A program made the translations under genes and the position numbers. The notes under the pieces are model-generated. The model made no database searches and had not been told where the DNA came from. It worked only from the letters and a program-made list of their open reading frames with translations. From Mucilaginibacter tundrae (GTDB lineage: Bacteria; Bacteroidota; Bacteroidia; Sphingobacteriales; Sphingobacteriaceae): 64,000 nt of DNA. This document shows, in pieces, positions 21,422 to 38,529 of the stretch (within the stretch, counting starts at the first letter, position 1; each line of letters starts with the position of its first letter). Location: NCBI RefSeq assembly GCF_013408825.1, contig NZ_JACCBZ010000011.1:62001-126000 (forward strand), given 5' to 3'.

Positions 21422-21718
21422 ATGTCTGTATCTGCTCCATTCAATTTAAATACGATTATTCAGCGTAATGAAAATAATTTTTTGGCAAATTCATTAGGTG
21501 ATGAAACCGTAATGATGGATATGGACAATGGTGAATACCTGGGTATTAATAGTGTGGGTACTGATATATGGAATTTGCTGCAGGAACCTATATCTGTACA
21601 GGAACTGATCAAAAAAATGCTTGATATATATGAGGTTAGCGAAGAAGAATGTACTGCCGAAATAAATGCCTTTTTAAGCCGTATGATCAAACAGAATATG
21701 CTGGTTGTTCTGAAATAA
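21422..21718 (+). CDS. PqqD-like lasso RRE protein B1 (copy 1)
   Basis: A 98-residue PqqD-family protein, the RiPP recognition element (B1) that binds the precursor leader and delivers it to the B2 protease. Seen: the family-typical LGDETVMMDMDNGEYLGIN beta-hairpin, the GTDIWNLLQEPISVQELIKK helix region, and the EEECTAEINAFLSRMIKQNML helix. Its stop is 43 bp before the transglutaminase-like B2 gene, an arrangement standard for lasso clusters with split B protein. A second copy at 27034 is clearly homologous (both contain EV/LGDE-VMMDM). Confidence 0.9.
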   Translation: MSVSAPFNLNTIIQRNENNFLANSLGDETVMMDMDNGEYLGINSVGTDIWNLLQEPISVQELIKKMLDIYEVSEEECTAEINAFLSRMIKQNMLVVLK

Positions 21719-21761
21719 TAATCATTTTTTGGCAAATCGCGGTGGCTGTTAAAAATACAAT

Positions 21762-22205
21762 ATGAATTTAATTCGCAAAGTAAAAACTTTCGCTGCCTAT
21801 CCGTTATCAATTAAATTGTTGTTTGCAGAAGCCCTGATCACCTCAGTAGGGGTTAAATTAACGCTTAAATTTTTCCCTTTTAAAAGGGTTATGAATTGGC
21901 TTGGCACTGCCCGGCGAGAAAGTGAAAGAGACGAAAGCCCATCAACATTATTAAAAAGAAAACAAATAAAAACCGCTTTGCAGCTTTGTAACCGCTACGC
22001 GTTTTGGCCAACGGAGTGCTATACTTTATCACTTACGGGCAAGTTGCTGCTAAAAAGAAGAAATATTGACAGCACTATTTATATAGGGTTTAATAAATCA
22101 GAAGACGGGAAATACAAGGGGCATGCCTGGTTAAGGGCTAATGATACTTACATCTCAGGCATTAAGGAAGCAAGGGCATTCACGGTTCATTCATTATTTA
22201 GTTAA
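21762..22205 (+). CDS. Lasso peptide leader peptidase B2 (transglutaminase-like, copy 1)
   Basis: A 147-residue B2 protein that removes the leader peptide before ring closure. Seen: catalytic Cys86 in FWPTECYTLSLTGKLLLKRR, followed by IYIGF and catalytic His121 in GHAWLRAND; the usual acidic third member is most likely Asp128 (His+7), with Asn127 next to it. The N-terminal half has the hydrophobic FFPFKRVMNWLG segment seen in Bacteroidota B2 proteins. It follows B1 in one operon and converges with the cyclase gene (24-bp gap). Confidence 0.9.
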   Translation: MNLIRKVKTFAAYPLSIKLLFAEALITSVGVKLTLKFFPFKRVMNWLGTARRESERDESPSTLLKRKQIKTALQLCNRYAFWPTECYTLSLTGKLLLKRRNIDSTIYIGFNKSEDGKYKGHAWLRANDTYISGIKEARAFTVHSLFS

Positions 22206-22229
22206 TAGCATGGCAAATATTAATCAACT

Positions 22230-24140
22230 CTAATGCCATTCGGGATTTTTTTCCAGCCATCTTAACAATTCCATTGAGGGTATGTTATTGGATTTAACCT
22301 TATGTAAAGCGGATTGGTCATCCTTTTTTATTTCCGAAGCATGTTTTGCTTTTTCTAAAATAGCATCTTTATTTTTTAATAAAGGATGATCCGTTCGCTG
22401 TAAAAGATCTATATACTGGTTCCAGTTATACTTATTTAACATTAAAAATGGAGCAACGCTGCCAAACTTGCTGTCTCTTTCCATTATAATAGGTGGTAAA
22501 TATTGTTTAACGGCCTGCCTGTAGGTAGTACGGGCAAGTTCGCCGTCATATTTAAGATAATTAGGCATTGAAAGGTAAAACTGGGCCAGTCTTATATCGG
22601 CCATCGGGAAACGGGGCTCTGTTCTGAAATGCAATCCATAACGCGTTTCACTTTCCAGCCTTTGATTAACCTGTGGTTTAAGCAGCCGATATTTTTGTGT
22701 ATGTCTGTAGCTTTTAAATTGTTCTTTATAATTTACATCCTGCCAAACGTTCTCTCTGTAATTTCGCTTGTATTTATTCGGAATATGATATATTTCAAGT
22801 GCCTCGTTCATCGCTGACCCGTACCTTTTAAATAATATTTTTAAACGATGCAGGCTGTATTTTAAAGGGTAAGGAAGTAATGGTTCCAGCTTATTTAAGC
22901 CGGGATCCTTTTTTTTGGCCAGGAAATATTTAAGATATTGATTTTTATCCCTGTAGTCGAGAAAATAATATTTACCCCGGTAGGTAACCAGTTCATCACC
23001 CGGAAAACCAGATAATAAGGTGCGGATATCATATTGCAAAGCGGCCTTTTTGATCGGCAATTGCCATAAAGGGTTCCATCGTTCCATACCATCATTAACA
23101 AAAATTGAAAAATCCATTTCTTCAACATGATCTTTGAAGGCGGGTTCAGTTATATAAATGGGATCTTTAATTTGATTATAGGCTGTTACGGCATCAATAT
23201 ATTTCCGCTCATCAAATTTGTTTATATTTTCGTCAAAAACACCATCAGGCAGCGTATTTGACAACGTGAACAAACGCTTGTTCTTTTCTTTCAAAAAGCG
23301 ATTAGCTGCACCTGTTATGGCAGATGAATCCATTCCTCCACTTAATTCAACACCAACTGGAAAATTTGACCGGGTACGGCATTTTACCGCCTCATTAAAA
23401 AGACGAAGTAATTCCTCGTAATATGCTTCTTTGGACGGTAGTGTTATCTCCGTTTCGGTATCAAGGGTCCAATATTGTTTTAATATCGATGGTTTTCCTG
23501 TAGCTGATACTATAAGGGAATGAGCAGGCGGCAGGCGTTTTATCTGCTGGTATAATGTAGTATCTGTGCTTTGTTCTGGTCTGCTTAATAGCTGATTATA
23601 AAAAAACTGCTTATTAATGGTTTTATCAACGTCGGGTACTGTAAGTATCCCTTTTTTTTCACTGGCAAAAACAAAAAAACGATCGTCTGAATAGTAAAAA
23701 AATGGTTTAACACCCAGGTGATCTCGTGCGCAAAAAAGTTGCTGCCTGTTCTCATCCCAAATGGCAAATGCAAAATCGCCTATTAGATATTTAACGCAAT
23801 GCTCGGCATATTGCTCATATGCCTTCAAGATCAGGCTGCTGTCTGGTATAGTTTTGCGGAGTAAGTGTGGTATATTAAGCCTGGCAAATAGTTCGTCACG
23901 ATTGTCAATGCGGGCATCGGCTGTTATAGATAGCTTACTTTCGGGGTTATAATATGGTAACTTTTCATGAAGCGATTCGGGGGTATTATATAACATTAGA
24001 TGCCCCAGGCCGGTATGATGATTGTGCCACAGACCCGAGTCATCGGCATTCCAATGATTTAATACAATTTCCATCGGCACAAGATCACGCTCCTGCACTA
24101 TTTCTTTATTAATATTTATTCTTCCGAATATAGCGCTCAT
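22230..24140 (-). CDS. Lasso cyclase, asparagine-synthetase-like protein C (copy 1)
   Basis: A 636-residue asparagine-synthetase-B-like protein that adenylates the ring Asp/Glu side chain and joins it to the N-terminal amine of the core peptide. Seen: degenerate N-terminal glutaminase domain (starts MSAIFG, lacking the Cys2 nucleophile), the inner DARIDNRDELF and FAIWDENRQQLFCARDHLGVKP segments, and the ATP-pyrophosphatase motif SGGMDSS (Ser267 to Asp271). Loss of Cys2 fits lasso cyclases. It is encoded opposite to B1/B2 and divergent from precursor 1, with 138 bp between their starts. Confidence 0.9.
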   Translation of the reverse strand: MSAIFGRININKEIVQERDLVPMEIVLNHWNADDSGLWHNHHTGLGHLMLYNTPESLHEKLPYYNPESKLSITADARIDNRDELFARLNIPHLLRKTIPDSSLILKAYEQYAEHCVKYLIGDFAFAIWDENRQQLFCARDHLGVKPFFYYSDDRFFVFASEKKGILTVPDVDKTINKQFFYNQLLSRPEQSTDTTLYQQIKRLPPAHSLIVSATGKPSILKQYWTLDTETEITLPSKEAYYEELLRLFNEAVKCRTRSNFPVGVELSGGMDSSAITGAANRFLKEKNKRLFTLSNTLPDGVFDENINKFDERKYIDAVTAYNQIKDPIYITEPAFKDHVEEMDFSIFVNDGMERWNPLWQLPIKKAALQYDIRTLLSGFPGDELVTYRGKYYFLDYRDKNQYLKYFLAKKKDPGLNKLEPLLPYPLKYSLHRLKILFKRYGSAMNEALEIYHIPNKYKRNYRENVWQDVNYKEQFKSYRHTQKYRLLKPQVNQRLESETRYGLHFRTEPRFPMADIRLAQFYLSMPNYLKYDGELARTTYRQAVKQYLPPIIMERDSKFGSVAPFLMLNKYNWNQYIDLLQRTDHPLLKNKDAILEKAKHASEIKKDDQSALHKVKSNNIPSMELLRWLEKNPEWH

Positions 24141-24225
24141 TATGTGTGTGTTGCAAACTCTAGAGTAAATTGGACTAAGGAATTCCTTCGGGTAAATTGT
24201 TAAATTAATATATTAAATTAAGTTA

Positions 24226-24256
24226 TTTGAAATAAATAAACTTTTTACTAAATTGG
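24226..24256 (+). promoter_or_regulatory. Promoter of lasso precursor 1
   Basis: TTTG (24226-24229) and TAAATTGG (24249-24256; one mismatch to TAnnTTTG) are separated by exactly 19 bp, the preferred Bacteroidota spacing. Predicted start of transcription is about 17-20 nt before ATG 24279. Confidence 0.55.
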
Positions 24257-24278
24257 CTTTTAATATATTAAAATAAAA

Positions 24279-24461
24279 ATGATGACAAATCAACCTAAAC
24301 CCACAATGGAAAAAAACGAAACTGGTAATAAAAAAATTTGGAAAAGCCCTACAATAGAAATAATTGGTCAGGATGCAGTTCAGAGCGGGAGTGTTACAGG
24401 AACAGAAGGTAAACATTTTACGCTGACTGGGAATCCTTACATTGGCGGGTCAACTTCGTGA
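24279..24461 (+). CDS. Lasso peptide precursor 1 (A1)
   Basis: A 60-residue precursor. The leader (residues 1-36) contains WKSPTIEIIG, matching the [Y/W]xxPx[L/I]xxxG motif bound by lasso B1 proteins. The predicted 24-residue core starts at Gly37; its first seven residues are GSVTGTE, so Gly1 can close a macrolactam on Glu7 (Glu43 of the precursor). The tail contains bulky residues (Lys, His, Phe, Tyr) able to lock a threaded tail and ends in ...GGSTS, with a C-terminal Ser. The residue at leader position -2 is Gln rather than the common Thr. Starts at 24282 or 24306 are also possible. It lies between the cyclase and the sulfotransferase/kinase genes. Confidence 0.85.
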   Translation: MMTNQPKPTMEKNETGNKKIWKSPTIEIIGQDAVQSGSVTGTEGKHFTLTGNPYIGGSTS

Positions 24462-24493
24462 TCGATAAAATAAAGTATCTTATAACTTGTTAA

Positions 24494-25357
24494 TTAAAGA
24501 TAATCATATAATTCCATATATTTTTTATGGATTGATGTAATATCATTGATTTGCTCTGAATTTAATTCATTTTCCCAATTACCAGCCTTTCCTTTTCTGA
24601 AAAAGGAAGGGCTTCCAATAAATTTTTCTTTAAAGCCCTTCTCTTTCTCTTTTTTCTGTAATTGTTCAAAGCTACTGGCTATTATTGCTGCTTCAATTTG
24701 TTCTTTTGTAGCAGTTATCCCCATAAAATTTACTGCTTTGCTAAAAGCTGTAAGCGTATCGGCTATCATATCCTCGTATCTTATTAACAAAACCGGAAAC
24801 GGTAGGTTACTTGTCCAGCTTTTTACATGCCCGCTCCAGCTTAGCATTAATTGTTTAAACTGGTTATATATATTTAAATTATTGCTTTGTTTTGCCAGGA
24901 AGCCATTTTCATTGCTCATCAACGTAATGGTTTGATCAATGGTACTGTTATTATGATTGGCAAATGAACCTACGACATCTAAGGGATTGCGGATAAAATA
25001 TATGGCACATCTTGTACATTCAGTCGGAACTATAGGCTGGTTATCCTGGTTATAGGTGTAAGCATCATGAATTTTGACGAACAAATTCTCTTTTTCATAG
25101 GTCTTTTCCAGGTTTATAAAAACCTCCGGCAGTAATACTTTCACTTCCTCGTCGTAAAGATAAGTTGAATCGAGGTCAGTAAAATTATCAAATACTGGTC
25201 GTGACGAAAATATACCATCTGTCTTCATTTCATTAATATCCAGTTCGCCCTCATTCAGCAAAGCAGTTAAAAATGCCCTAAACCAAGTGTTTCCACTTTT
25301 TGGATAAGATGCAAGCCAGATAATTTTTTTAGCCTTATCAATGTCATTATTGTCCAT
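24494..25357 (-). CDS. Sulfotransferase 1 of lasso cluster
   Basis: A 287-residue PAPS-dependent sulfotransferase. Seen: 5'-phosphosulfate-binding loop YPKSGNTWFRAFL near residue 17, and the 3'-phosphate-binding segment FIRNPLDVVGSFANHNNST in the middle, followed by YEDMIADTLTAF. Cytoplasmic, full length. Its start overlaps the end of the kinase gene by 11 bp, so the kinase and sulfotransferase are translationally linked, and it converges with the precursor-1 gene (32-bp gap). The likely acceptor is a hydroxyl on the lasso peptide (Ser, Thr or the tail Tyr), which is inference from context. Confidence 0.88.
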   Translation of the reverse strand: MDNNDIDKAKKIIWLASYPKSGNTWFRAFLTALLNEGELDINEMKTDGIFSSRPVFDNFTDLDSTYLYDEEVKVLLPEVFINLEKTYEKENLFVKIHDAYTYNQDNQPIVPTECTRCAIYFIRNPLDVVGSFANHNNSTIDQTITLMSNENGFLAKQSNNLNIYNQFKQLMLSWSGHVKSWTSNLPFPVLLIRYEDMIADTLTAFSKAVNFMGITATKEQIEAAIIASSFEQLQKKEKEKGFKEKFIGSPSFFRKGKAGNWENELNSEQINDITSIHKKYMELYDYL

Positions 25358-26267
25358 TTGCGGTAAAGTTTAATTCAACTAAAGAAACTAATTGGGTAAT
25401 GGTGTTTCGAGATTCAACTCTGCTTATATCATATACCGGGGTGTTTGCGGTTATTTTTGATATTATATCAAAATGAATACCTCGTTTTTTCATGGAATTC
25501 ATTTGAACAGGATGCTGGTTATTTCTTTGTATTTCGCGGAAAGCCGCAATGGAACTCAATTCCTTAATTTCGACTTCGATATTTTTATTTAATTTACGCA
25601 GTATAAAAATTCGCTTTATAAGTTTCGGTTTTATATTAAACTCGTCATGGCAAAAGCGGGCGTATTTAGGTAATTGAGGGCGAATTTTATTATCATCTTC
25701 CGGTATTTCAATACCTATTTTTTCAAAGCTATCTCTCCATAGGTGGATAGAAGGGTAAGATGAATAAGCATATACCTGCCCATTACTTTTATCAGCTTTC
25801 AACACGCATAAATCGTCCGAAAATAGCTTATAGCCTTTTTGCTGCAGCATTGCTACCGTAGTTGATTTTCCTGTTCCTGAACCGCCGCAAAATAAAATTA
25901 CCCCATCTTCGTGTTCAATAGCTGATGCATGTAATGGGATCAAATCACGCTGGTGTAAAACAGCCGGCATTGCATTGGTCAACAAAAACAGCCTGATGCT
26001 TTTTTCATCAGCACCTGTCATGGGGTCTATAATAATCCTGTTGCCATCAGTTACATAATAATTAGCAATATTTAAAAATTTAAGTAAGTATTTTGTAGGG
26101 CTGATAGATACTCTTGCCCGGTTTATTACATCTTCACCAATTAGTATTTGCGGGGTGATGCCAATACTGATATTTACATCGGGCAGATTGGGGAATTCGA
26201 AAGGTAAGAGTTCAGGAAATTCTATTTCGGATGCAATATGTAATCCAAATCCCCAGTAATTATACAT
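25347..26267 (-). CDS. HPr-kinase-like lasso tailoring kinase 1
   Basis: A 306-residue HprK-related kinase. Seen: N-terminal YWGFGLHIASEIEFPEL, PLHASAI with His113, P-loop GGSGTGKST (128-136, Lys134) and the downstream acidic pair in YKLFSDDLCVL. Kinases of this group in paeninodin-type lasso clusters phosphorylate the side chain of the C-terminal Ser of the precursor; precursor 1 ends in Ser. The motif set is complete, so it is likely active. It is the first gene of a two-gene operon with sulfotransferase 1. Confidence 0.88.
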   Translation of the reverse strand: MYNYWGFGLHIASEIEFPELLPFEFPNLPDVNISIGITPQILIGEDVINRARVSISPTKYLLKFLNIANYYVTDGNRIIIDPMTGADEKSIRLFLLTNAMPAVLHQRDLIPLHASAIEHEDGVILFCGGSGTGKSTTVAMLQQKGYKLFSDDLCVLKADKSNGQVYAYSSYPSIHLWRDSFEKIGIEIPEDDNKIRPQLPKYARFCHDEFNIKPKLIKRIFILRKLNKNIEVEIKELSSIAAFREIQRNNQHPVQMNSMKKRGIHFDIISKITANTPVYDISRVESRNTITQLVSLVELNFTANGQ

Positions 26268-26371
26268 TTATACAGATTGATTATAGAAAAGTTATACTAC
26301 AATAATAAGCAAATTCAATTGATATATAGTTTTACTATTTTAGTGGAATCATTTTCATTAGTAGATCTTTT

Positions 26372-26944
26372 ATGGAAAACAATTCGTGTATTATCTATAC
26401 TGATTTTTTAGAGGACGATGTTAATTCAGAACTCTATAATCATACTATATCCATTTCGGAAAAGTTTTCCCAAACAAAGCTTGGAAAAGGGATAATTAAT
26501 GAAAAATGGAGAAAATCAAATGCCATTATTTCAAACGATTATTCTAAGTTTAGCGAGATAGTAAAGGAAAAAATCATTGAGAATTTTGTTGAAATATGTG
26601 AAAAATTAAAAATTGATATTTTTGATATTAAACGCATTGAAACGCATCTTACCAGCCATAATAATGGCGAGTTTTATAAACCACACATAGATACGGGTAC
26701 AGGAAAAATGGCAAGCAGGGTTATAACTTTTGTTTATTATTTTCATTCTATCCCTAAATTATTCACCGGCGGGCAGCTTCTTTTCCTTAAAAACCAGCCC
26801 CGGCCACTTATTGTAGAACCGGCCAATAATTCCATCGTTTTCTTTAATTCATCGCTGGTGCATGCCGTACATCCGATAAATTGCCCTGACAAAAAATTTG
26901 AACACGGACGTTTCACTTTAAACGGATGGATTCATAGGAAATAG
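26372..26944 (+). CDS. 2-oxoglutarate/Fe(II)-dependent oxygenase (prolyl-4-hydroxylase-like)
   Basis: A 190-residue non-heme iron oxygenase. Seen: metal-binding HxD in KPHIDTGTG, distal His in SSLVHAVHPI, and the 2-oxoglutarate-binding Arg in HGRFTLNGW. The GEFYKPHID...TFVYYF pattern is that of the P4Hc group. It is divergent from the kinase/sulfotransferase operon and 89 bp before the second B1 gene. In this context it may hydroxylate a core peptide residue; the Pro of precursor 1 (NPYIGG) is one candidate. That assignment is inference; the enzyme family is clear. Confidence 0.85.
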   Translation: MENNSCIIYTDFLEDDVNSELYNHTISISEKFSQTKLGKGIINEKWRKSNAIISNDYSKFSEIVKEKIIENFVEICEKLKIDIFDIKRIETHLTSHNNGEFYKPHIDTGTGKMASRVITFVYYFHSIPKLFTGGQLLFLKNQPRPLIVEPANNSIVFFNSSLVHAVHPINCPDKKFEHGRFTLNGWIHRK

Positions 26945-27033
26945 CACCTACCGACCTGAATTGTTTAATGTAATACTTTTATTGCAATTGAATTTTTCTA
27001 AAAAAAATAATTGCAGAGTACATATATTTGATT

Positions 27034-27327
27034 ATGTTAAATGATGAAAGCCTAACCTTAGAAACAGTACTTCAAAAAAATACCCAAAATTTGCTGATCA
27101 GTGAGGTTGGTGACGAATTGGTAATGATGGATATGGAAAAAGGAAACTATATTAATCTGAATAAGATTGGCCGTATTATATGGGAACAAATTGAAAATCA
27201 GATAACAGTAATTGAGTTAATTAATTTATTAACAAACCGTTTTGATGTGCAAAAAGATGAATGTACTAAGGATACACTGGAATATTTGCAGAAAATGTAT
27301 GATCAAAATCTTTTATCAGTTAAATAA
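27034..27327 (+). CDS. PqqD-like lasso RRE protein B1 (copy 2)
   Basis: A 97-residue PqqD-family protein with the same segments as copy 1 (EVGDELVMMDMEKGNYINLN, GRIIWEQIENQITVIELINLL and a C-terminal helix ending YDQNLLSVK). The frame is open from TTG 27028, but ATG 27034 (MLNDESLTL) is the natural start. It presumably supplies the leader-binding function to the second lasso module, whose B2, cyclase and precursor genes lie beyond the tail-collar genes on the opposite strand. Pairing with module 2 is inference. Confidence 0.88.
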   Translation: MLNDESLTLETVLQKNTQNLLISEVGDELVMMDMEKGNYINLNKIGRIIWEQIENQITVIELINLLTNRFDVQKDECTKDTLEYLQKMYDQNLLSVK

Positions 27328-27653: not shown

Positions 27654-28226
27654 ATGGATAATTACATTGGAGAAATCAAAGCTTTCCCTTTTAATTTTGT
27701 ACCTGTCGGCTGGATCCCCTGTGACGGGAGGCAGCTGTTGATTCAACAGTACACTGTATTGTATGTCATTCTTGGCAGTCTTTATCAGCCAGCAGGCGTT
27801 CCTGTAAGCCCAACAACATTTTATGTACCTGACCTGCGTGGGGTTGTACCAATTGGCTTTAACCCGGCAGGCCCTTTAAACACTATTCAGGGTCAAAAAG
27901 GTGGTGAAGAAACAGTTACGCTTACGCAAACCCAGATACCATCGCACAATCACAACATACAGGCAGAGATATTTAGCCATACGTCTAATCCAGCCCAGTT
28001 AACCAATCAGCCAGGCAATACGGTTTATCTTACAAATGCAAGTACAGTGAGCGGAACAACTGTGGATAATATATATACCTATGCTGCTTCAAGCTCACCT
28101 GGTACAACGATGAATACTATTGCACTTGGTTTCACAGGTAATGGCGGAGCTCATGAAAATAGGATGCCTTATCTACCGATGAATTTTGCGGTATGTGCTG
28201 AAGGTCTATATCCATCAAGACCATAA
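27654..28226 (+). CDS. Phage tail collar domain (MdpB-like) protein 1
   Basis: A 190-residue protein with an N-terminal tail-collar domain: GEIKAFPFNFVPVGWIPCDGR, then a LYVILGSLY segment and FYVPDLRGVVPIG, followed by a low-complexity middle with paired His (IPSHNHNIQ) and a C-terminal HENRMPYLPMNFAVCAEG...SRP. The family is known from phage tail fibres and from microcystin-related (Mdp) proteins; function outside phages is unclear. First of three tandem paralogues, all inside the lasso locus, with no other phage gene nearby. Confidence 0.88.
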   Translation: MDNYIGEIKAFPFNFVPVGWIPCDGRQLLIQQYTVLYVILGSLYQPAGVPVSPTTFYVPDLRGVVPIGFNPAGPLNTIQGQKGGEETVTLTQTQIPSHNHNIQAEIFSHTSNPAQLTNQPGNTVYLTNASTVSGTTVDNIYTYAASSSPGTTMNTIALGFTGNGGAHENRMPYLPMNFAVCAEGLYPSRP

Positions 28227-28275
28227 TAGATCAGTTTTCAAATTAACAAAATCCTAACCTCTTAAAAATAAAAAA

Positions 28276-28839
28276 ATGGATAATTATCTTGGCGAAATAC
28301 GCATATTCCCGTATTCACATATTCCCAGCGGCTGGTTGCCCTGTAACGGACAAACCCTGCAATCGCAACAATATCAGGCCCTGTTTTCACTCCTGAGCAG
28401 CATATATGGCGGCAATGGCTCAACTAATTTTAACCTTCCTAATTTAAACGGAAAAGTAATAGTTGGGCAGGGTACAAGTACAACAGGTACGGCTTACCCT
28501 ATAGGTGTCGCTGGCGCAGGTGGGTCAGCAAGCGTGGTGCTTGGCACAGCAAACATCCCCTCGCATAACCATCTTGTAAATGCTGCAACCACATACGATT
28601 CAAACAACGCAACCAACGAGCTATTGGGTAATCCTAACGTTCCTACAAGCGCTACACAACCCCATATCAACGTAGCTGGTGCACAAATAAATTTGTATGG
28701 CCCCGGGCCTGCAAATACAACACTTAATGCAGGCAGCATAACTACTACCGGTACTGCAGCGGCACACGAAAACCGCATGCCTTATATGGCTTTAATTTAT
28801 TGTATTGCAACGTCAGGTCAGTATCCAACAAGATCTTAA
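28276..28839 (+). CDS. Phage tail collar domain (MdpB-like) protein 2
   Basis: A 187-residue paralogue of its neighbours, starting MDNYLGEIRIFPYSHIPSGW and carrying LFSLLSSIYGGNGSTNFNLPNLNG, NIPSHNHLV and HENRMPYMALIYCIATSGQ. It lies 49 bp after the first copy and 46 bp before the third, in the same operon. The repeat of the whole gene rather than a domain indicates tandem duplication and divergence; the middle regions differ most. Confidence 0.88.
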   Translation: MDNYLGEIRIFPYSHIPSGWLPCNGQTLQSQQYQALFSLLSSIYGGNGSTNFNLPNLNGKVIVGQGTSTTGTAYPIGVAGAGGSASVVLGTANIPSHNHLVNAATTYDSNNATNELLGNPNVPTSATQPHINVAGAQINLYGPGPANTTLNAGSITTTGTAAAHENRMPYMALIYCIATSGQYPTRS

Positions 28840-28885
28840 CCGCATATAGAAATCAAATCAATTATTAACTTAAAATTTAGTTTAT

Positions 28886-29419
28886 ATGAATTATTATTTA
28901 GGAGAAATCATTGCTTATGCAGGCAATTATGTACCACAATATTTTCAATTGTGCGATGGATCGATGTTAAACATTAACGAATATCAGGCGTTATATACTT
29001 TATTAGGAACTACCTATGGCGGCGGAGCAGGAACTTTTGCTGTACCTAACCTAAAGAGCATTGTAGTTGTAGGTACAGATTCAGGCACCTCATATCCATT
29101 GGCTGCAACAGGGGGAGCAACTACCGTTACGCTGGCAGAAGCAAATTTGCCTGTACATACGCATGCCTTAAACGCAAGTACTGCTGCTGCAACTGCTGCT
29201 TCGCCAGCCGGCGCCTTCCTTGCTGCTTCTAATAGTCCAACCGGTTACCCTAATGTATCTGCTTATTCAGCACCACCGGCAACACCGTCAACCATCTCGG
29301 GGATCCTGAATGCTGCATCCATTAACAACACAGGTGGCAGTGCTCCACATGATAATATGATGCCATACCTTACTATTAATTATATGATATGCACCCAAGG
29401 GCTATTTCCAACTTCCTGA
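28886..29419 (+). CDS. Phage tail collar domain (MdpB-like) protein 3
   Basis: A 177-residue third paralogue: NYYLGEIIAYAGNYVPQYFQ, LGTTYGGGAGTFAVPNLKS, NLPVHTHALN and a C-terminal HDNMMPYLTINYMICTQG. It has lost the GW..C spacing slightly (QYFQLCDG) but is otherwise complete. A terminator follows 43 bp downstream, ending the operon. Possible roles (surface or extracellular oligomeric fibre, delivery or immunity) are speculation. Confidence 0.88.
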   Translation: MNYYLGEIIAYAGNYVPQYFQLCDGSMLNINEYQALYTLLGTTYGGGAGTFAVPNLKSIVVVGTDSGTSYPLAATGGATTVTLAEANLPVHTHALNASTAAATAASPAGAFLAASNSPTGYPNVSAYSAPPATPSTISGILNAASINNTGGSAPHDNMMPYLTINYMICTQGLFPTS

Positions 29420-29755: not shown

Positions 29756-29899
29756 TTAACTGCCTGTAATGCCACTGTCTGATTGTACATCCCCAACACC
29801 TTGTGTCTCTGTTTCTATTGGTAAAAAATTCACTTCAGGTTTGCTCCAGTTTTCTTTAAGCTGATCGTTGTTGTTCGTAGTGGTGATTTCAGTTTTCAT
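29756..29899 (-). CDS. Lasso peptide precursor 2 (A2), short
   Basis: A 47-residue reading frame recovered by reading the minus strand downstream of cyclase 2. The leader (1-33) contains WSKPEV, the [Y/W]xxP motif of lasso leaders, and ends ETQ with Thr at position -2, the residue most often found there. The predicted 14-residue core is GVGDVQSDSGITGS: Gly1 can form a macrolactam with Asp8. The distance from the motif Pro to the core Gly is 13 residues, identical to precursor 1, which supports both cleavage predictions. It ends in Ser like precursor 1. The tail is short and lacks bulky residues, so threading, or the ring choice, is less certain. Confidence 0.75.
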   Translation of the reverse strand: MKTEITTTNNNDQLKENWSKPEVNFLPIETETQGVGDVQSDSGITGS

Positions 29900-31980: not shown

Positions 31981-32054
31981 GCTATCTATAAATTATACGT
32001 ATCGTACTTGTAAAATAATTTTCACCTGTTTTTAGTAATAATAAATGAATGTTA

Positions 32055-32100
32055 AGCCTCTTTCTAAATCTCTCCTTCTGGGGGAGATTTAGAAGAGGCT
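32055..32100. repeat. Palindromic intergenic element
   Basis: AGCCTCTTTCTAAATCTC (left) and GAGATTTAGAAGAGGCT (right) form an almost perfect stem with one bulged T, closed by CTCCTTCTGGGG. No U tract follows on either strand, so it looks more like a REP-type repeat than a terminator. It lies between sulfotransferase 2 and cyclase 2. Confidence 0.6.
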
Positions 32101-32109
32101 GCAATTATA

Positions 32110-32961
32110 TTATAAATATTGATACCTTTTCATTACGCTGTGATGCTTTTGGGTAATATATTCAACCTGCGATGCAGCCAGTTCATGTTCCCAACCATTC
32201 ATTTCCCCTTGTCTAAAAAAAGCTTGGTTTTTGGCGGAAAATCTTTCACCAAACCCTTGTTCCTGTTCTTGTTTTTTCAGACTTGAAAAACTACTGGCCT
32301 CAATGGCCTTTAACAATTCATTATCATTGTACTTACCCGGATCGATATGCTGCATTAATTGCTTAAATGTATCAAAAGTATTAATAAGCATATCTTCATA
32401 GCGCACTGTAAAAACCGGGAATGGAGGCCTTAATGTCCAGCTTTCTACATGAAAGCTCCAGTTGGAGATGAATTGCCTGAACTGACTATCAGTATTAAGG
32501 TTATTATTTTGATTAAAAATGGCATAATCGTCATCAGCTAATCTTTTAACTGCATGGTCAATGGTTATACTACTATGATTAGCCAGCGAGCCGGCTATAT
32601 CCAAAGGGTTTCGAACGAAATAAATGGCACAAAATGTACTTTCGGTTGGGATAATGGGTTGATTTAAATGGCTAAATGTATAAGCATCATGTACTTTTAC
32701 ATAAAACCTTTCTTGTTTGTAAGAAGCAGCTAAATGGTTATACATTAGCGGTTGTGTTATTTTGGCTTCTTTATCAGTAAGGTATGTTGAGTTGAGATCT
32801 GTATGGTTAGTAAATATTTGACGCGAAGAAAACATTATTTTTTCCATTTGATTAATATCAACTTCGCCATTATTCATTAAAGCTGAAAGGAAAGCCCTGA
32901 ACCACGTATTGCCGCTTTTAGGATATGATGCCAGCCAGATAATTTTTTTTTGCAGATCCAT
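32110..32961 (-). CDS. Sulfotransferase 2 of lasso cluster
   Basis: A 283-residue PAPS-dependent sulfotransferase, clearly paralogous to the 24494 gene. Seen: SYPKSGNTWFRAFLSALM near the N-terminus, FVRNPLDIAGSLANHSSIT, YEDMLINTFDTF, and a C-terminal FFRQGEMNGWEHEL segment with the same order as copy 1. It is 11 bp after kinase 2 in one operon. Because each module has one kinase-sulfotransferase pair, both modifications appear to belong to the pathway rather than to a single peptide. Confidence 0.88.
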   Translation of the reverse strand: MDLQKKIIWLASYPKSGNTWFRAFLSALMNNGEVDINQMEKIMFSSRQIFTNHTDLNSTYLTDKEAKITQPLMYNHLAASYKQERFYVKVHDAYTFSHLNQPIIPTESTFCAIYFVRNPLDIAGSLANHSSITIDHAVKRLADDDYAIFNQNNNLNTDSQFRQFISNWSFHVESWTLRPPFPVFTVRYEDMLINTFDTFKQLMQHIDPGKYNDNELLKAIEASSFSSLKKQEQEQGFGERFSAKNQAFFRQGEMNGWEHELAASQVEYITQKHHSVMKRYQYL

Positions 32962-32972
32962 ATTTTGTTTTT

Positions 32973-33890
32973 TTATATAGCAAAAAAATCTTCAGATTCT
33001 AAAAATGCAATTATTTGTCTGATCGTATCCCTTTTAGCAGGCCGTTGAATTTTGATAATATTTTTACAAGAGGCAAGTAAATTTGTTAATGCATAAAAAT
33101 AATTATTTCTTTTTTGCGTCCCGTTTATTTGAAATGGTCTAAATATATTTTTTTCCAGCTCTGCTAATACCCCGATTGTTGACAGCCTGGATGTCTGGAT
33201 CTTTTCAAGTTGATTCTTTTTTTCTAAAAATATAATCCCTTTCACCAAAGCCGGATCTTTAGTAAATCCTGAATGAAAGGATAATCCATATTTAGGAAAA
33301 TCAGGACGTAACATCAGCTCATTACCTGGTTTATTGATGCCTAATTTATCAAAACTGTCTTCCCATAAATTAATCACAGGATAAGAGGGTGTTACCCATG
33401 CCTTATTATCAGTATTATCAGGGCCAAATACGCACATATCGTCACAAAATACTCGGTGCCCGCGGGCTTGCAATGCAGCGGCAAGCGTGGATTTTCCTGA
33501 ACCGGGCTGCCCCAGGAACAGGCAAACCCCGCCACTTATATGTACGCCTGAAGCATAAAAGGGAATCAGGTTACGTTGAAGCAACAAGGCCGAGATTACG
33601 CTGTCCAGTAAAAATAACCTGACAGATCTATCGTCTGATGCAGCATCAGGCTGAACGGTTATCTCGTTTCCATTACGCACATAGTAAGCCGCAACACCCG
33701 TTATAAGTATCAGATATTCCCTTTCATTTATAGAAACATTTAAAGCGCTCACCACATTATCTCCGTTTATTTCATCAGGAACGATACCTCTTCTGATGGC
33801 AATATCAGGTTTTGAAAAATGATGAGGAACCAATTCAGGGAAAGCTATTTCTGATTCGATATTCAACCCAAAGCCCCGGTAATAATTCAT
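32973..33890 (-). CDS. HPr-kinase-like lasso tailoring protein 2 (altered HAS motif)
   Basis: A 305-residue HprK-related protein; the frame extends to 33926, but ATG 33890 (MNYYRGFGLNIESEIAFPEL) aligns with the start of kinase 1. Seen: P-loop GQPGSGKST and acidic pair HRVFCDDMCVF. The HAS segment before the P-loop reads PFYASGV, with Tyr where kinases 1 and 3 have His. If that His takes part in catalysis, as the conserved His does in HPr kinase, activity may be altered. It is encoded between B2 copy 2 and sulfotransferase 2 in one operon. Confidence 0.82.
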   Translation of the reverse strand: MNYYRGFGLNIESEIAFPELVPHHFSKPDIAIRRGIVPDEINGDNVVSALNVSINEREYLILITGVAAYYVRNGNEITVQPDAASDDRSVRLFLLDSVISALLLQRNLIPFYASGVHISGGVCLFLGQPGSGKSTLAAALQARGHRVFCDDMCVFGPDNTDNKAWVTPSYPVINLWEDSFDKLGINKPGNELMLRPDFPKYGLSFHSGFTKDPALVKGIIFLEKKNQLEKIQTSRLSTIGVLAELEKNIFRPFQINGTQKRNNYFYALTNLLASCKNIIKIQRPAKRDTIRQIIAFLESEDFFAI

Positions 33891-33974
33891 TTCGTTAAAG
33901 TTTACTTGTAATAATTCAAGCGGCAACCAAATTTATCACTATTACTTAAAATATCAGATTATTATGTCTGTTTA

Positions 33975-34400
33975 TTAGCTTTCAAACCTGCTTAGAACTG
34001 TATAATTATCTAATTTACCATCACCTGTAATTATTACGGCATTACTTTTTAGCCATGCATGCGCAAGTAATTTATTGGTGTCGGTCTTGTACACTCCAAA
34101 GTAAATAACACTTTTAAAACCTCTTCTTTTCAGCATTATTTTAGCAGCCAGCGCCTGTTCAAAACATTTTGCCCGCCACGGGGAATAATGAGCGCCCCTT
34201 AAAATTGACATGCTTATTTTTTTAAGAACGTTATCATCATTGACTGGGAAATTGCTTTCAAGGTTATCAGTTTTTACTTTGCCCATTAGCGGCACAATTT
34301 TTTTGAAAGGAAAAAACACCAGCATTATCCTCGCGAAAGCAAGTAAAAACCAGGCCTCGGTAAAGAGAACATATTCCTTAAACGTAACGGATGGTTTCAT
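33975..34400 (-). CDS. Lasso peptide leader peptidase B2 (transglutaminase-like, copy 2)
   Basis: A 141-residue B2 protein. Seen: FFPFKKIVPLMG near the N-terminus, catalytic Cys79 in SPWRAKCFEQALAAKIMLKRRG and His114 in LAHAWLKSN. At the place where copy 1 has Asn-Asp, this copy has Asn120-Ala, so the acidic third residue of the triad is missing or supplied from elsewhere. It starts 3 bp after the stop of kinase 3 and is followed by kinase 2, all in one operon of module 2. It should remove the leader of precursor 2. Confidence 0.87.
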   Translation of the reverse strand: MKPSVTFKEYVLFTEAWFLLAFARIMLVFFPFKKIVPLMGKVKTDNLESNFPVNDDNVLKKISMSILRGAHYSPWRAKCFEQALAAKIMLKRRGFKSVIYFGVYKTDTNKLLAHAWLKSNAVIITGDGKLDNYTVLSRFES

Positions 34401-34403
34401 TAA

Positions 34404-35339
34404 TTATAATAATCCTTCCAAATGTAGCAATAGTTGTTCCCTGGTTTCACCTGCCGGCCTGGTGATTTCATAAACTTTGCTGGTTTTTAGTAGCCCTGTA
34501 ATAACACCAAAACGGATGTGTTTTAAATTATCACCCTTTAACAACTTAGCCCTGTAAACCTGTTCGTTAACAGCAACAAAGGCTTCTCCTCCTGATAATT
34601 CTCTGATTTTTAATTCAGTTCCCTCGCCTTTTTTTAAAACAATAATTTTGTCAATAGGATAGCTCTTTTTGTTGAAGCTATTATGAAAAAAGATACCATA
34701 TTTATCCATTCCGGGTCTCACCAAAAAAGATCTGTCGTTAAACATCTCATGCTGCAGGTTATTTAACGTATCATTCCACAATTTGATCATTGGGTATGAA
34801 GCTGTTGCTAATATATCTCCCGAGCCATTTTTTTGCAGCACTACAACGTCATCGCTAAAAATAGTGTATCCTTTTTTTATTAATCCCGCAGTAAGTGTTG
34901 ATTTTCCGGCACCTGAGTCGCCAGTAATTAACAACAGACGATCATCCCTGATAATGGCAGATGCATGAAATGGTAATAGGTCTCTTTGTAAAAGGATAGC
35001 AGCCATAACCGTGGCAAGTACAAAAAGCCTTACACTACGCATTTCGGTACTATTAATATCAGGCTCAATAATTATACTATTGCCGTTTGTTGCATAATAT
35101 CTTGCAACGTTTTTTACTTCAAAAGTGAGTTCTGTCTCATTAAGCAAGTGAAAAATATGCTTTCGATGGTTAAGGGTCGACTCATTATGAAAAGGCATTT
35201 TTCCAAGAACGATGGTTACGTCCGCCTTATCAAATTCAGAAGGCAATAATTCGGGAAATTCAATTTCTGATGAGATATTTAATCCGAACCCCCAATAATT
35301 ATAATTAGACTTATGCTTAGTTAGGGAAGTTTTGTTCAT
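34404..35339 (-). CDS. HPr-kinase-like lasso tailoring kinase 3
   Basis: A 311-residue HprK-related kinase with a full motif set: YWGFGLNISSEIEFPELLP, PFHASAI (His125), P-loop GDSGAGKST (140-148, Lys146) and YTIFSDDVVVL. It is the promoter-proximal gene of the module 2 operon (kinase 3, B2, kinase 2, sulfotransferase 2, cyclase 2, precursor 2). Since kinase 2 in the same operon has an altered motif, kinase 3 may be the main phosphorylating enzyme there; alternatively the two add successive phosphates. Both ideas are inference. Confidence 0.87.
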   Translation of the reverse strand: MNKTSLTKHKSNYNYWGFGLNISSEIEFPELLPSEFDKADVTIVLGKMPFHNESTLNHRKHIFHLLNETELTFEVKNVARYYATNGNSIIIEPDINSTEMRSVRLFVLATVMAAILLQRDLLPFHASAIIRDDRLLLITGDSGAGKSTLTAGLIKKGYTIFSDDVVVLQKNGSGDILATASYPMIKLWNDTLNNLQHEMFNDRSFLVRPGMDKYGIFFHNSFNKKSYPIDKIIVLKKGEGTELKIRELSGGEAFVAVNEQVYRAKLLKGDNLKHIRFGVITGLLKTSKVYEITRPAGETREQLLLHLEGLL

Positions 35340-35465
35340 TAGTTTTTAAAATCGCTGCAATTAACAAAAAATGTGTAAACAATATACCGTAAATTATATT
35401 GTCTTTTTTTGTAATATATCGATTATAAAATTTCTTTAAGTTTAAATGTGTTTGCAAAAGTTTTA

Positions 35466-35473
35466 TAGGTTTG
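35466..35473 (+). promoter_or_regulatory. Possible -7 element before ABC exporter gene
   Basis: TAGGTTTG matches TAnnTTTG exactly, 58 bp before the ATG of the ABC transporter; the expected -33 TTTG is not at ideal spacing. Confidence 0.3.
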
Positions 35474-35530
35474 TTAGTATTAATATATAACTATGCAGTT
35501 AAGCCAACAGCCTTTAAAATTATTTCTTAA

Positions 35531-37303
35531 ATGAAGATTAAAGATAACATCAATTATTTAAGAAAAGATCTGCTAAGGATATTCCTACTGCTATGGAAAG
35601 CCGATAAACATACTGCTTTTATTAATATTACTTTACAGTTTGCACAGGCGTTACTGCCTGTTATCTCTTTATACTTCATTAAAGCACTTATTGACGCTTT
35701 AACAAAAGGTCACAGGCAATTTACGGATGTTATACCGATAATTATCGCATTTGGCGTTGTACAATTCTTATTATCCCTTGTTACCCAATATGCAAGTTAT
35801 ATAACTACTATCCATCAGGAAACACTAACAGACTATTTATCAGGTGAAGTTTTAAGTAAAGCCATTGATGTTGACTATGCCTATTATGAAAACCCCGACT
35901 ATCATGATACCTTACATCTGGCGCAACAGCAGTCTTTATACAGAGCTACTGCGCTGTTAACTAATTTTAATTCTTTATTGCTCAATAGCTTATCGCTGAT
36001 TTTTTTAGTGGCGTTCTTTTTTAGCCTGCACTCAACATTTGCTTTATTATTCATGGTATTGTCTATTCCGCTTGCAATAATTAAATGGTATTCCGGCTTT
36101 TGGTTATTAAAGTTAGAAAGGCAGTTTGCTCCATTGGAAAGAGAAGCAAATTACCTGCACCAAACGCTAACCGGGGTAAGTTTTGCTAAAGAAGTGCGCG
36201 TTTTTGGATTTGGCCAGTCATTTATTACCAAATTTAATAACATACGAAAATACATCCATCATGAAAAAAAGAAATTGCACATCAGGCTAACGTGGTATAG
36301 TTTAATAGCCGAATCGATGGAAATTATTGCCATGACTTTTATTTTTGGTTTATTAGCCAAATATACATGGGAAAAGACAATTACAATTGGCGTTTTTGTA
36401 ATATATATCCAGGGCTTTCAGCGATTGCAAAGCACTTCAAAAAGCTTTTTACAATCTGTAGTGCAAATTTTTCAGCAACGAATTTTCTTAAAAGACTTTT
36501 TTGCTTTTTTTGATATCGGGGTAAACAAAAATACTCTGGCTACTAAGCCATTTCCCGCCAAACTGGAAGGCATATCTGTGAGAAATTTATCTTTTACTTA
36601 TCCCCAAACGAGTAAAACGGTATTAAAAGACATATCAATAGAATGTGCTCCGGGTAAAATTATAGCTATAGTTGGCGAAAATGGCTCGGGCAAATCAACA
36701 CTTGTAAAGCTATTGGCACGTTTATACGAAGCTGAAGCAGGGGGGATAAAAATTAATGATGAAGATATAAATGATATTTCAATAGACGATTTTAGAAATC
36801 ATACTATATTTCTATTTCAGGACTTTGAAAAGTATTTTTTAACTATTGAAGAAAATATCATTCTTGGCGCTGATAAAAGTGACGTTCCGGATGCCTTGGA
36901 GAAAGCCGCAAAATTATCCGGCGCTCATCCTTTTATTTCAAAACTTTCAAAAGGATATAAAACCAAAATGGGTAGGTTATTTGAAGGCAGCGAACAAATT
37001 AGTGGCGGCCAATGGCAAAAATTAGTATTATCGCGTATATTTTATAAAAACACTAAACTAGTAATTCTTGACGAGCCAACCAGCGCTCTGGATCCTACGG
37101 CAGAGTTTGAACTATTTAACAATTTGAAGGATGAATTAAAGGAAAAAATAGTAATTCTTATTACTCATCGTTTATATAATTTAAAGATTGCTGATTATGT
37201 ATATTTAATGCAGGATGGCAGAATAGCCCAAGAAGGCACCTTTGAAGATTTGATAAACAAGGATGGCGCTTTCAGCAAAATGTATGAAGCACAAAAATTG
37301 TAA
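35531..37303 (+). CDS. ABC transporter, lasso peptide exporter D
   Basis: A 590-residue half-transporter of the exporter type: six predicted membrane helices (about 1-330) fused to an ATPase domain. Seen: Walker A GENGSGKST, Q-loop LFQDFEKYF, signature ISGGQWQK (LSGGQ variant), Walker B KLVILDEPTSALD and the H-loop Thr-His in LITHRLYNL. No N-terminal C39 peptidase domain is present, which agrees with leader removal by the separate B2 proteins. It is the only exporter in the locus and so probably serves both peptides and also gives self-immunity, as lasso D proteins do. Confidence 0.88.
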   Translation: MKIKDNINYLRKDLLRIFLLLWKADKHTAFINITLQFAQALLPVISLYFIKALIDALTKGHRQFTDVIPIIIAFGVVQFLLSLVTQYASYITTIHQETLTDYLSGEVLSKAIDVDYAYYENPDYHDTLHLAQQQSLYRATALLTNFNSLLLNSLSLIFLVAFFFSLHSTFALLFMVLSIPLAIIKWYSGFWLLKLERQFAPLEREANYLHQTLTGVSFAKEVRVFGFGQSFITKFNNIRKYIHHEKKKLHIRLTWYSLIAESMEIIAMTFIFGLLAKYTWEKTITIGVFVIYIQGFQRLQSTSKSFLQSVVQIFQQRIFLKDFFAFFDIGVNKNTLATKPFPAKLEGISVRNLSFTYPQTSKTVLKDISIECAPGKIIAIVGENGSGKSTLVKLLARLYEAEAGGIKINDEDINDISIDDFRNHTIFLFQDFEKYFLTIEENIILGADKSDVPDALEKAAKLSGAHPFISKLSKGYKTKMGRLFEGSEQISGGQWQKLVLSRIFYKNTKLVILDEPTSALDPTAEFELFNNLKDELKEKIVILITHRLYNLKIADYVYLMQDGRIAQEGTFEDLINKDGAFSKMYEAQKL

Positions 37304-37307
37304 TTAC

Positions 37308-37325
37308 ACTTAAATTTACTTAAGT
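37308..37325. terminator. Weak bidirectional hairpin between ABC and nucleotidyltransferase genes
   Basis: ACTTAA and TTAAGT pair across a 6-nt loop, followed by TTTT on the plus strand. It occupies the 29-bp gap between convergent genes. Confidence 0.35.
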
Positions 37326-37332
37326 TTTAACT

Positions 37333-38529
37333 TTATCTCTTACTGGGTTTTATTACAGATCTGAAAGGTTTCATGATATAATATACAAAAAAAAGTTTTT
37401 CGGATAGTTGTATTTCACTAAAATCTGTGGGCCCCGGAATAAAGCGAAATTTACCGCATAGCCAATAAAATTTTATCTTTTGTAGAAAAGAATCCTGTAA
37501 AAGCGCTATGTTTTTAATGAATTTTACCATATTCTCTTTCTTAAAGTGAAATACCTCCTGTGAGCAAACCTGGTCGCGAAAATGCTTAACTATATTTTCC
37601 GGATCGTTAAAATCAGGTGCTTGCGGCAATGAAATGCCCATCAATTGTTCTGAGAGCATGTTACTTACGCTTAAAGCTTTTTTTAATTCGAAATTTGTAA
37701 AGCTGTTAGTTAATAAATTGCCGGAAGCATGTATGGAAGGCTGGCGAATGCCCTGGCTTATATCTATAATATTTTTTAAAAACTTAAAGGTATCTTTTAT
37801 AGAATGATGAATTAACATTGCAGAAAAATGCGCGGCGGGATCTAATCCTCTAATGTTAGTCTTAAAAAAAACTATTTGTTCATTTGCCTGATAAAGTAAT
37901 GTATTGACTTTCGCATTTACGCCTACCTCATTTTCCGCAATAGCCCAGTGTAATTCTACGTGAAAATGTCTGATGTTCCCTTTAAATTTATTGAAATTAT
38001 AATCCTTAAAATAATCAAAATATTTTGCTCCCAGATATTGATAAATATCATCAAGCTCGGGGCTATAACCGTCTTCTTTCAAAATTTGTATAGCTGCCGG
38101 CAAATCATCCGGTTGTATAATTAAATCAATATCACTGTTTTCACGTGAAATAAGATCACCAAAAAACTGCTTTGAAAACGCTGTGCCTTTGTAGGGAATT
38201 ACCTCTATATTGCTTTTTTTTAAAAGCAGTATAATCCGTTCTGTTTCAGCTCCCTGCTTCCAGTTTTGCAATACAACTTCTCTATACTCTGTAGCAATAA
38301 AATCCTTTAATGGCGCAGGAATGTTTAATTGGCCAATTATTTTATAAACAATAGGCCTTACCTTGTGTATTTTGGATAAATAAATAAAATTTTCCCAATT
38401 AATTTCATTATCAGTTACAAAAGCTGTTAACTCATCTTGGGTGCTAGTTTCAAAAAACACACGGCAACTTAAAATAAGGGTTGCTATTTCATTGCCATAG
38501 CTTTTTTTAATATCGTTAATTGCAATCAC
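37333..38529 (-). CDS. Nucleotidyltransferase family protein (PF14907-like) of lasso cluster
   Basis: A 398-residue protein of the nucleotidyltransferase family 5 type (Nucleotidyltr_5). Seen: the metal-binding core SRENSDIDLIIQPDDL with the DxD pair, preceded by the conserved YKGTAFSKQFFGD, and followed by helix-rich region with FHVELHWAI and an AAHFSAMLIHHSIKD segment. Such proteins are found in kinase-bearing lasso clusters and in other RiPP or exopolysaccharide loci; a role in adding a nucleotidyl or further phosphate group to the phosphorylated peptide is plausible but unproven here. Convergent with the exporter gene. Confidence 0.8.
   Translation of the reverse strand: MIAINDIKKSYGNEIATLILSCRVFFETSTQDELTAFVTDNEINWENFIYLSKIHKVRPIVYKIIGQLNIPAPLKDFIATEYREVVLQNWKQGAETERIILLLKKSNIEVIPYKGTAFSKQFFGDLISRENSDIDLIIQPDDLPAAIQILKEDGYSPELDDIYQYLGAKYFDYFKDYNFNKFKGNIRHFHVELHWAIAENEVGVNAKVNTLLYQANEQIVFFKTNIRGLDPAAHFSAMLIHHSIKDTFKFLKNIIDISQGIRQPSIHASGNLLTNSFTNFELKKALSVSNMLSEQLMGISLPQAPDFNDPENIVKHFRDQVCSQEVFHFKKENMVKFIKNIALLQDSFLQKIKFYWLCGKFRFIPGPTDFSEIQLSEKLFFVYYIMKPFRSVIKPSKR

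Follow-up and report, generated by a model that had tools for sequence, protein, structure and literature searches.

Two predicted lasso peptide pathways of the paeninodin type and a trio of phage tail collar genes at one locus of Mucilaginibacter tundrae

Lasso peptides of the paeninodin type, which are tailored by HprK-like kinases, are described as products of pathways with split B1 and B2 proteins, a C protein, an ATP-binding cassette (ABC) exporter, an HprK-like kinase, and a precursor that ends in Ser (PMC8498205, PMC9266682). The catalytic set of the lasso kinase is given as a conserved His-Lys-Asp-Asp (PMC9266682), and, according to the review PMC8498205, lasso clusters of Firmicutes with genes for sulfotransferases and nucleotidyltransferases were described in 2016. 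In the bsf cluster of Bradymonas, a leader with Ile at position -2 was shown to be processed, and Ile or Val occupies that position in other groups (PMC10368454). Here we analyze a 64,000-nucleotide stretch of Mucilaginibacter tundrae (contig NZ_JACCBZ010000011.1, positions 62,001 to 126,000; hereafter the window), in which family searches place two B1/B2/C lasso sets, one ABC exporter, three HprK-like proteins, two 3'-phosphoadenosine-5'-phosphosulfate (PAPS) sulfotransferases, one 2-oxoglutarate (2OG) oxygenase, and one PF14907 nucleotidyltransferase at positions 21,422-38,529. An original prediction made from the letters of the window had listed the two lasso sets, the exporter, and the tailoring genes, and each of them was found where it had been placed; it named neither the three phage tail collar genes (27,654-29,419) nor the fact that the kinase-like protein Kb has lost its catalytic His.

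We lean towards reading the locus as two class II, paeninodin-type lasso pathways of different ancestry, accompanied by a recurrent fibre-tip partner of the collar type that most likely binds the modified lasso peptide. Because collar genes often adjoin such lasso pathways in two distant bacterial groups, the collar-lasso linkage hints at a partnership that has not been described. The genes are as follows (loci used for comparison carry L numbers, genomes G numbers).

21,422-21,718, plus strand: B1a, PqqD-like leader-binding protein (recognition element of ribosomally synthesized and post-translationally modified peptides, RRE) of module a; PF05402 E 2e-17, NF033536 E 1e-20; 64-67% identity to B1 of L018 and L019
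21,762-22,205, plus strand: B2a, leader peptidase of module a; NF033537 83.9 bits against a cut-off of 33; Cys and His retained
22,230-24,140, minus strand: Ca, lasso macrolactam synthetase of module a; NF033535 E 2e-131, PF00733, PF13537; in the tree with L020, L021, L023, and L057
24,279-24,461, plus strand: Aa, precursor of 60 aa (51 aa from an inner ATG at 24,306); open reading frame (ORF) and motif scan; leader like those of L023 and L058
24,494-25,357, minus strand: STa, PAPS sulfotransferase; PF00685 E 9e-27; PAPS motifs intact
25,347-26,267, minus strand: Ka, HprK-like kinase overlapping STa; TIGR04352 E 4e-10, P-loop region only; H, K, and DD intact
26,372-26,944, plus strand: OX, 2OG-Fe(II) oxygenase; PF13640 (2OG-FeII_Oxy_3) E 2e-15; 59% homologs adjoin Ka in L019 and B2 in L056
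27,034-27,327, plus strand: B1b, PqqD-like leader-binding protein of module b type; PF05402 E 3e-17; 60% to B1 of L016, 59% to L055
27,654-28,226, plus strand: TC1, phage tail collar protein (T4 gp12-like fibre tip); PF07484 E 3e-16; PHROG tail proteins
28,276-28,839, plus strand: TC2, phage tail collar protein; PF07484 E 1e-24; AlphaFold model with Foldseek matches to the cyanophage A-1(L) tail fibre and T4 short tail fibre
28,886-29,419, plus strand: TC3, phage tail collar protein; PF07484 E 3e-20
29,756-29,899, minus strand: Ab, precursor of 47 aa; ORF; leader KENWSKPE common to L016 and L055
30,088-31,980, minus strand: Cb, lasso macrolactam synthetase of module b; NF033535 E 1e-111; in the tree with L016, L055, and L065
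32,110-32,961, minus strand: STb, PAPS sulfotransferase; PF00685 E 2e-21; 49% to STa; PAPS motifs intact
32,973-33,926 (from an ATG start, 32,973-33,890), minus strand: Kb, HprK-like, predicted impaired kinase; catalytic His replaced by Tyr
33,975-34,400, minus strand: B2b, leader peptidase of module b; NF033537 91.6 bits
34,404-35,339, minus strand: Kc, HprK-like kinase of module b; TIGR04352 E 1e-11; HKDD intact; in the tree with the L016, L055, and L065 kinases
35,531-37,303, plus strand: ABC exporter, MsbA-like; PF00005 E 1e-29; 67% to exporters of L021, L057, and L058
37,333-38,529, minus strand: NT, nucleotidyltransferase; PF14907 (NTP_transf_5) E 1e-34; 51-57% to NT of L016, L055, and L059

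Homologs of B1, B2, and C, as expected of class II lasso pathways with a split B protein, are thus present twice each. The B1 proteins (B1a, 21,422-21,718; B1b, 27,034-27,327) match PF05402 above its cut-off and NF033536 just under it (73.7 against 80 bits). The proposed placement of B2 and C in the lasso families was confirmed, with both B2 proteins above the NF033537 cut-off and both C proteins matching Asn_synthase, GATase, and NF033535, the last at 440 bits (Ca) and 374 bits (Cb), below its cut-off of 525. Beside the cluster, an acyltransferase gene and Wza/Wzc-like exopolysaccharide export genes abut it at 38,720-43,475, an arrangement found in part at the lasso loci L017, L020, and L021 as well.

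The linkage was quantified from a B2 survey, which found the family in 15/149 genomes of the genus, 12/301 drawn from the family, 35/392 drawn from the phylum, and 131/298 Sphingomonadaceae-type genomes; copy numbers and places were entered by hand from tables. A search of 52 B2-positive Bacteroidota genomes for collar genes found them in 23, eight of which (G000, G014, G179, G348, G357, G373, G618, and G749) carry one within 12 kb of B2, with distances of 24 and 28 kb in two further genomes, G276 and G165. The genome G382 gave no PF07484 match, yet its contig (L029) breaks off within a C-terminal fragment that resembles a collar protein and adjoins B1. Among 80 B2-positive genomes of a first Sphingomonadaceae-type set, 24 had a collar gene, and in nine of these it lay within 12 kb of B2. 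A replicate of 49 further B2-positive genomes, 14 with a collar gene, yielded two linked cases against 0.20 expected (P 0.016), with a third genome (G970) at 13.1 kb, which brings the Sphingomonadaceae-type sets combined to 11 of the 38 genomes bearing both; the weak-B2 genome G1058 stood outside the collar search. Random placement would give 0.47 linked cases among the first 47 collar-bearing genomes and 0.7 over all sets. Within the genus sample, collar trios (at least three matches) occurred in 7/10 B2-positive and 14/90 B2-negative genomes (P 6e-4).

Collar genes in the Sphingomonadaceae-type genomes tend to accompany particular kinds of lasso loci. Kinase genes were found in 12/12 linked loci (within 13.2 kb, and so including G970, which falls outside the 12-kb count) and in 20/57 unlinked loci, and lasso-type sulfotransferase genes in 9/12 and 5/57, respectively. 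Restricting the comparison to kinase-positive loci left the sulfotransferase at 9/12 against 5/20, and the discovery part alone gave 8/9 against 4/40. The unlinked group comprises 40 + 17 fetched B2 loci, a subset of all unlinked ones, and a few of the compared loci are well under 20 kb (L091, L101, and L134, unlinked; L076, linked). In the 12-kb linkage count, G803, G870, G979, and G1002, whose B2 place was not listed, were scored as unlinked. Model bias was tested by rebuilding the sulfotransferase and kinase models from Bacteroidota loci only (16/27 and 25/37 rows, respectively), and the counts were unchanged.

At several loci, the collar genes stand among the lasso genes themselves. In L019, the order on one strand is B1-B2-TC-TC-TC-formyltransferase, and in L065, likewise on one strand, it is TC-TC-TC-formyltransferase-B1; L064 carries C, B2, B1, sulfotransferase, kinase, formyltransferase, and three TC genes, followed by the nucleotidyltransferase and the ABC exporter. 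Linked Sphingomonadaceae-type loci have one to three TC genes by B1, the kinase, and B2, and mostly also C, sulfotransferase, and nucleotidyltransferase genes. In the window, positions 20-40 kb gave no formyltransferase match. One sphingomonad cluster also holds a gene for a 1101-aa FG-GAP/UnbV_ASPIC protein (L077:11580-14882), and an ORF of equal length occurs in L081.

In the window, TC1-TC3 are three tandem Phage Tail Collar genes encoding 177-190 aa between B1b and the precursor Ab. A PHROG search, confined to TC1-3, also matched them to phage tail families beyond the collar domain. The AlphaFold model of TC2 (mean predicted local distance difference test score 68.5) is good in the first ~60 residues only, with low confidence beyond, and its best Foldseek matches are the cyanophage A-1(L) tail fibre (8kec) and the T4 short tail fibre (1ocy); a sequence search of the PDB gave no match for TC2 or OX. 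Two histidines, His97 and His99, are invariant as a His-x-His motif in an alignment of 40 collar sequences, and T4 gp12 binds zinc through such histidines. No other phage structural or replication genes were detected near the collar genes (Pfam on the main ORFs at 21.4-39.8 kb; 17-43 kb by eye), which does not fit a prophage or tail particle. A tree of 24 concatenated trios, of which 18 come from B2-positive genomes, places the window trio in a six-row group (100/98) drawn entirely from B2-positive genomes; B2-positive trios as a whole do not form one clade. The tree of single collar genes is weakly supported, and first, second, and third genes tend to cluster by position, with exceptions that include TC2 of the window. 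Positional grouping of this kind would be consistent with an assembly of three subunits.

Collar ("microcystin-dependent") proteins are common in bacteria, and we know of no role assigned to those that stand alone. Twenty collar regions of the genus (L034-L053), some of them near lasso loci (e.g., L039, L046, L047), were scanned; formyltransferase genes were present in 14/20, and genes for an Asp/Asn hydroxylase, a 2OG oxygenase, a carbamoyltransferase, and a Peripla_BP_6 protein recurred. Two of these regions (L035 and L038) also carry a Sulfotransfer_3-like gene and an adenosine 5'-phosphosulfate (APS) kinase gene.

Modification-rich islands of this kind, with no lasso genes in view, feed the idea that collar proteins are themselves the substrates of the sulfotransferase, oxygenase, and formyltransferase, and that the lasso cluster is a neighbor borrowing these enzymes. 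We regard this as unlikely: the Sulfotransfer_3-like, APS kinase, hydroxylase, 2OG oxygenase, carbamoyltransferase, and formyltransferase genes of the islands speak for it, but enzymes of the window's Sulfotransfer_1 type come in pairs with HprK-like genes and are also present at lasso loci where no collar gene is in view (L016, L017, L018, L022). It seems doubtful that collar and lasso genes have no joint function and have only gathered at a hot spot of the chromosome where variable surface and secondary-metabolite genes collect. The concentration of linkage in kinase and sulfotransferase loci (12/12 and 9/12 against 20/57 and 5/57), its occurrence in two phyla, and the same-strand interleaving of the two kinds of gene in L019 and L065 speak against such a hot spot, which draws its support from the exopolysaccharide export genes beside the window cluster and in L017, L020, and L021, from collar islands that occur alone, and from genomes in which lasso and collar genes lie on separate contigs (G121, G174, G571). 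A collar-lasso partnership, for its part, must be set against several observations. The collar proteins have no signal peptide by eye, collar trios are present in the B2-negative genus genomes counted above (14/90), and no collar gene is in view at the kinase/sulfotransferase lasso loci L016, L017, L018, and L022. Related genomes in the sample mean that the P values overstate independence, and several linked genomes have a common arrangement (G853/G917, G857/G889, G768/G862/G924, G348/G373). The replicate alone gave neither a significant sulfotransferase contrast (1/3 against 1/17, P 0.28) nor a significant kinase contrast (3/3 against 6/17, P 0.07), and among Bacteroidota the sulfotransferase count (Sulfotransfer_3-type genes included) of 7/8 linked against 8/16 unlinked loci (P 0.09) is likewise not significant; that count excludes L027 (degraded), L028 (a metagenome-assembled genome), and G039 (a weak match), and its "unlinked" L020, L021, and L024 lie 24-66 kb from a collar trio. 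The kinase association is the more robust of the two, and the sulfotransferase association rests mainly on the first set. A strict sulfotransferase specificity of the collar link, considered as a candidate explanation, was weakened by the replicate, in which sulfotransferase genes were present in 1/3 and kinase genes in 3/3 linked loci.

The origin of the two modules can be weighed in the same way. Local duplication of one cluster, as the original prediction of "duplication and divergence" had it, might be read from the recurrence of the same gene families within 17 kb, from the 49% identity of STa and STb, and from the unsettled tree place of STb, which like Kb is divergent. We consider it highly improbable, and for C and Kc at least it was rejected: Ca and Cb are 33% identical, B2a and B2b 31%, and B1a and B1b 38%, and the C tree joins Ca to L020, L021, L023, and L057, from four other genomes (support 100), and Cb to L016 and L055, from two others (support 99), then to L065. 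Kc likewise groups with the module b kinases of L016, L055, and L065; strong support in the B2 tree is confined to the module a group. The exporter is closest to the module a loci L021, L057, and L058 (67%), and NT to L059, L016, and L055 (51-57%), two of which are module b loci. The separate placement of Ca and Cb among loci of other genomes suggests an island put together from two older lineages, not one freshly duplicated. Elsewhere in the window's own genome, a third lasso locus (L027, G000:C3 at ~621 kb) has C, B1, and a precursor-like ORF, with a partial, stop-interrupted B2 match. Another twin cluster (L066/L058, G357) holds two C genes, two kinase-sulfotransferase pairs, two precursors, single B1 and B2 genes, two formyltransferases, and a collar trio.

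Returning to two lasso pathways with a collar partner, the proposal of two lasso modules with a kinase, sulfotransferase, and nucleotidyltransferase set is supported by the family matches, by intact PAPS motifs, and by the intact His-Lys-Asp-Asp set of Ka and Kc. The matches of all three HprK-like proteins are confined to the P-loop region (PF07475, TIGR04352) and fall below curated cut-offs; Kb has Tyr in place of the catalytic His. Other kinase-like proteins adjacent to a sulfotransferase are degenerate in L016 (Asn), L071 (Gln; DG for DD), and L074 and L082 (Arg; DH/DG), and intact in L017, L019, L021, L022, and others. Because its catalytic His is lost, Kb would more likely be a non-catalytic docking partner of STb than a kinase. 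Both Sulfotransfer_1 proteins retain their PAPS motifs (at the motif positions of the family), and the closest solved structure to STa is the glycopeptide-antibiotic sulfotransferase TEG12. APS kinase-like genes lie in the lasso loci L020, L021, L055, L056, L058, and L064 (Pfam checked only on the L038 reference). A kinase-sulfotransferase pair of lasso type also stands with a nucleotidyltransferase-family gene on Tistrella mobilis pTM1 (L072), where the annotation of 20.8 kb shows neither a lasso B2 nor a lasso C. As for the suggested hydroxylation, the oxygenase gene is present, but its assignment to the lasso peptide is uncertain because the order sulfotransferase-kinase-OX occurs both in L019, with a collar trio, and in L056, where it adjoins B2 in a genome in which no collar gene was found. 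A role for the oxygenase on the collar side only was rejected, as OX or other PF13640-like genes flank B1/B2 in L056 and L060, from genomes without a collar gene found.

Both precursors are small ORFs with a W-x-x-P leader motif, and similar leaders occur in relatives. Aa has the leader WKSPTI...AVQ and the predicted core SGSVTGTEGKHFTLTGNPYIGGSTS, with a putative S1-E8 ring (the core start being inferred); Ab has the leader ENWSKPEV...ETQ and the predicted core GVGDVQSDSGITGS, with a putative G1-D8 ring. Each precursor thus combines the leader motif with an acidic residue at position 7-9 of its predicted core, and each ends in Ser, as in paeninodin-type lasso peptides. Across the window and its relatives, leaders are W/Y-x-x-P, D/E usually stands at core position 8 or 9, and the C-terminal residue is Ser except in L024, L060, L061, and L068. 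The ORF and motif scan gave no plausible precursor in L018, L020, L021, L057, or L076, nor one in L123, where it was limited to ORFs ending in Ser. In L021 (6847-7485) and L057 (1908-2531), both without a precursor found, a SET-domain gene (Pfam on the L021 copy) lies between C and the sulfotransferase, at the place of Aa in the window. L017:3068-4652 carries a tandem array of five precursor paralogs whose leaders are alike and whose cores differ, one core being without an acidic residue, and L125 contains an identical 46-aa precursor-like ORF twice, 4 kb apart (8682-8822 and 12911-13051).

From these data we infer the following chemical steps, along with the assembly and role of the collar proteins. 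Two complete pathways would share one exporter and one nucleotidyltransferase. B1 would capture the WxxP leader, the C-terminal Ser would be phosphorylated by an HprK-like kinase (Ka on Aa, Kc on Ab), B2 would cleave after V/T-Q, and C would close the 1-8 macrolactam. The phosphate might then be modified by NT, and a hydroxyl might be sulfated by STa or STb; because Ab has no Tyr, any sulfation of Ab would fall on Ser, Thr, or elsewhere. Kb would act as the docking partner of STb. The three collar proteins may assemble into a (hetero)trimeric, metal-binding fibre tip like that of T4 gp12, which most likely would bind the tailored peptide and so store, protect, or present it. As a tentative possibility, a phospho- or sulfo-lasso peptide might be specifically bound or displayed by a three-subunit, T4 gp12-like tip, with the phage fold reused as a carrier, receptor, or immunity protein in Bacteroidota and Sphingomonadaceae.

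To our knowledge, no purpose has been assigned to phosphate or sulfate tailoring of lasso peptides. Recurring in two phyla and following the kinase/sulfotransferase subtype, the linkage offers a testable partner both for this problem and for the role of the collar proteins. With two leader-binding proteins and two precursors, the locus could also serve as a system for studying pathway cross-talk, and it supplies candidates for a sulfated lasso peptide; no description of such a peptide was found in the open-licence PMC literature, including excerpts of PMC9484694. That literature likewise yielded no paper linking lasso peptides or their biosynthesis with a tail collar or phage tail protein. A table of families co-occurring with salt tolerance (PMC10040529) lists lasso B2, nucleotidyltransferase, sulfotransferase, aspartyl hydroxylase, PqqD, and asparagine synthase nearly consecutively, with a tail fiber family elsewhere in the same table, and the accompanying excerpt comments on neither.

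Set beside paeninodin-type pathways, the window differs in its Bacteroidota host, its two modules, its two sulfotransferases, a kinase-like protein without the catalytic His, and its collar genes. With pseudomycoidin, it has in common that one lasso cluster holds genes for both a kinase and a nucleotidyltransferase (PMC8498205, PMC9266682), NT (PF14907, E 1e-34) being a putative counterpart of PsmN; sulfotransferases, an oxygenase, and collar genes are additional in the window. The Bradymonas bsf cluster resembles it in combining K and N with B1/B2/C/D, and the predicted Val at -2 of Aa recalls the Ile/Val(-2) groups; no sulfotransferase or collar gene is mentioned for bsf in the excerpted text of that paper (PMC10368454). 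The collar proteins are like T4 gp12 and "microcystin-dependent" proteins (PF07484) in their collar domain, Foldseek matches (1ocy and 8kec), and invariant His-x-His, and differ from gp12 as stand-alone bacterial proteins of 177-190 aa that come in threes, with no other phage gene by eye at 17-43 kb. Very similar in its tailoring genes is a Thalassobaculum plasmid locus (NZ_CP139716, L071), which has two PqqD proteins, two HprK-like proteins, an Asn-synthase-type C, a sulfotransferase, B2, an ABC exporter, and a nucleotidyltransferase, and whose sulfotransferase-adjacent kinase-like protein also lacks the catalytic His; it differs in its single C and single B2, and no collar gene was found in its 24.8 kb. 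The original prediction had called the tailoring set unusually rich, but a kinase, sulfotransferase, and nucleotidyltransferase are common to many fetched relatives. The tailoring set of the window is not new, because Firmicutes clusters with sulfotransferase and nucleotidyltransferase genes have been published (as cited in PMC8498205) and a near-identical set lies on the Thalassobaculum plasmid.

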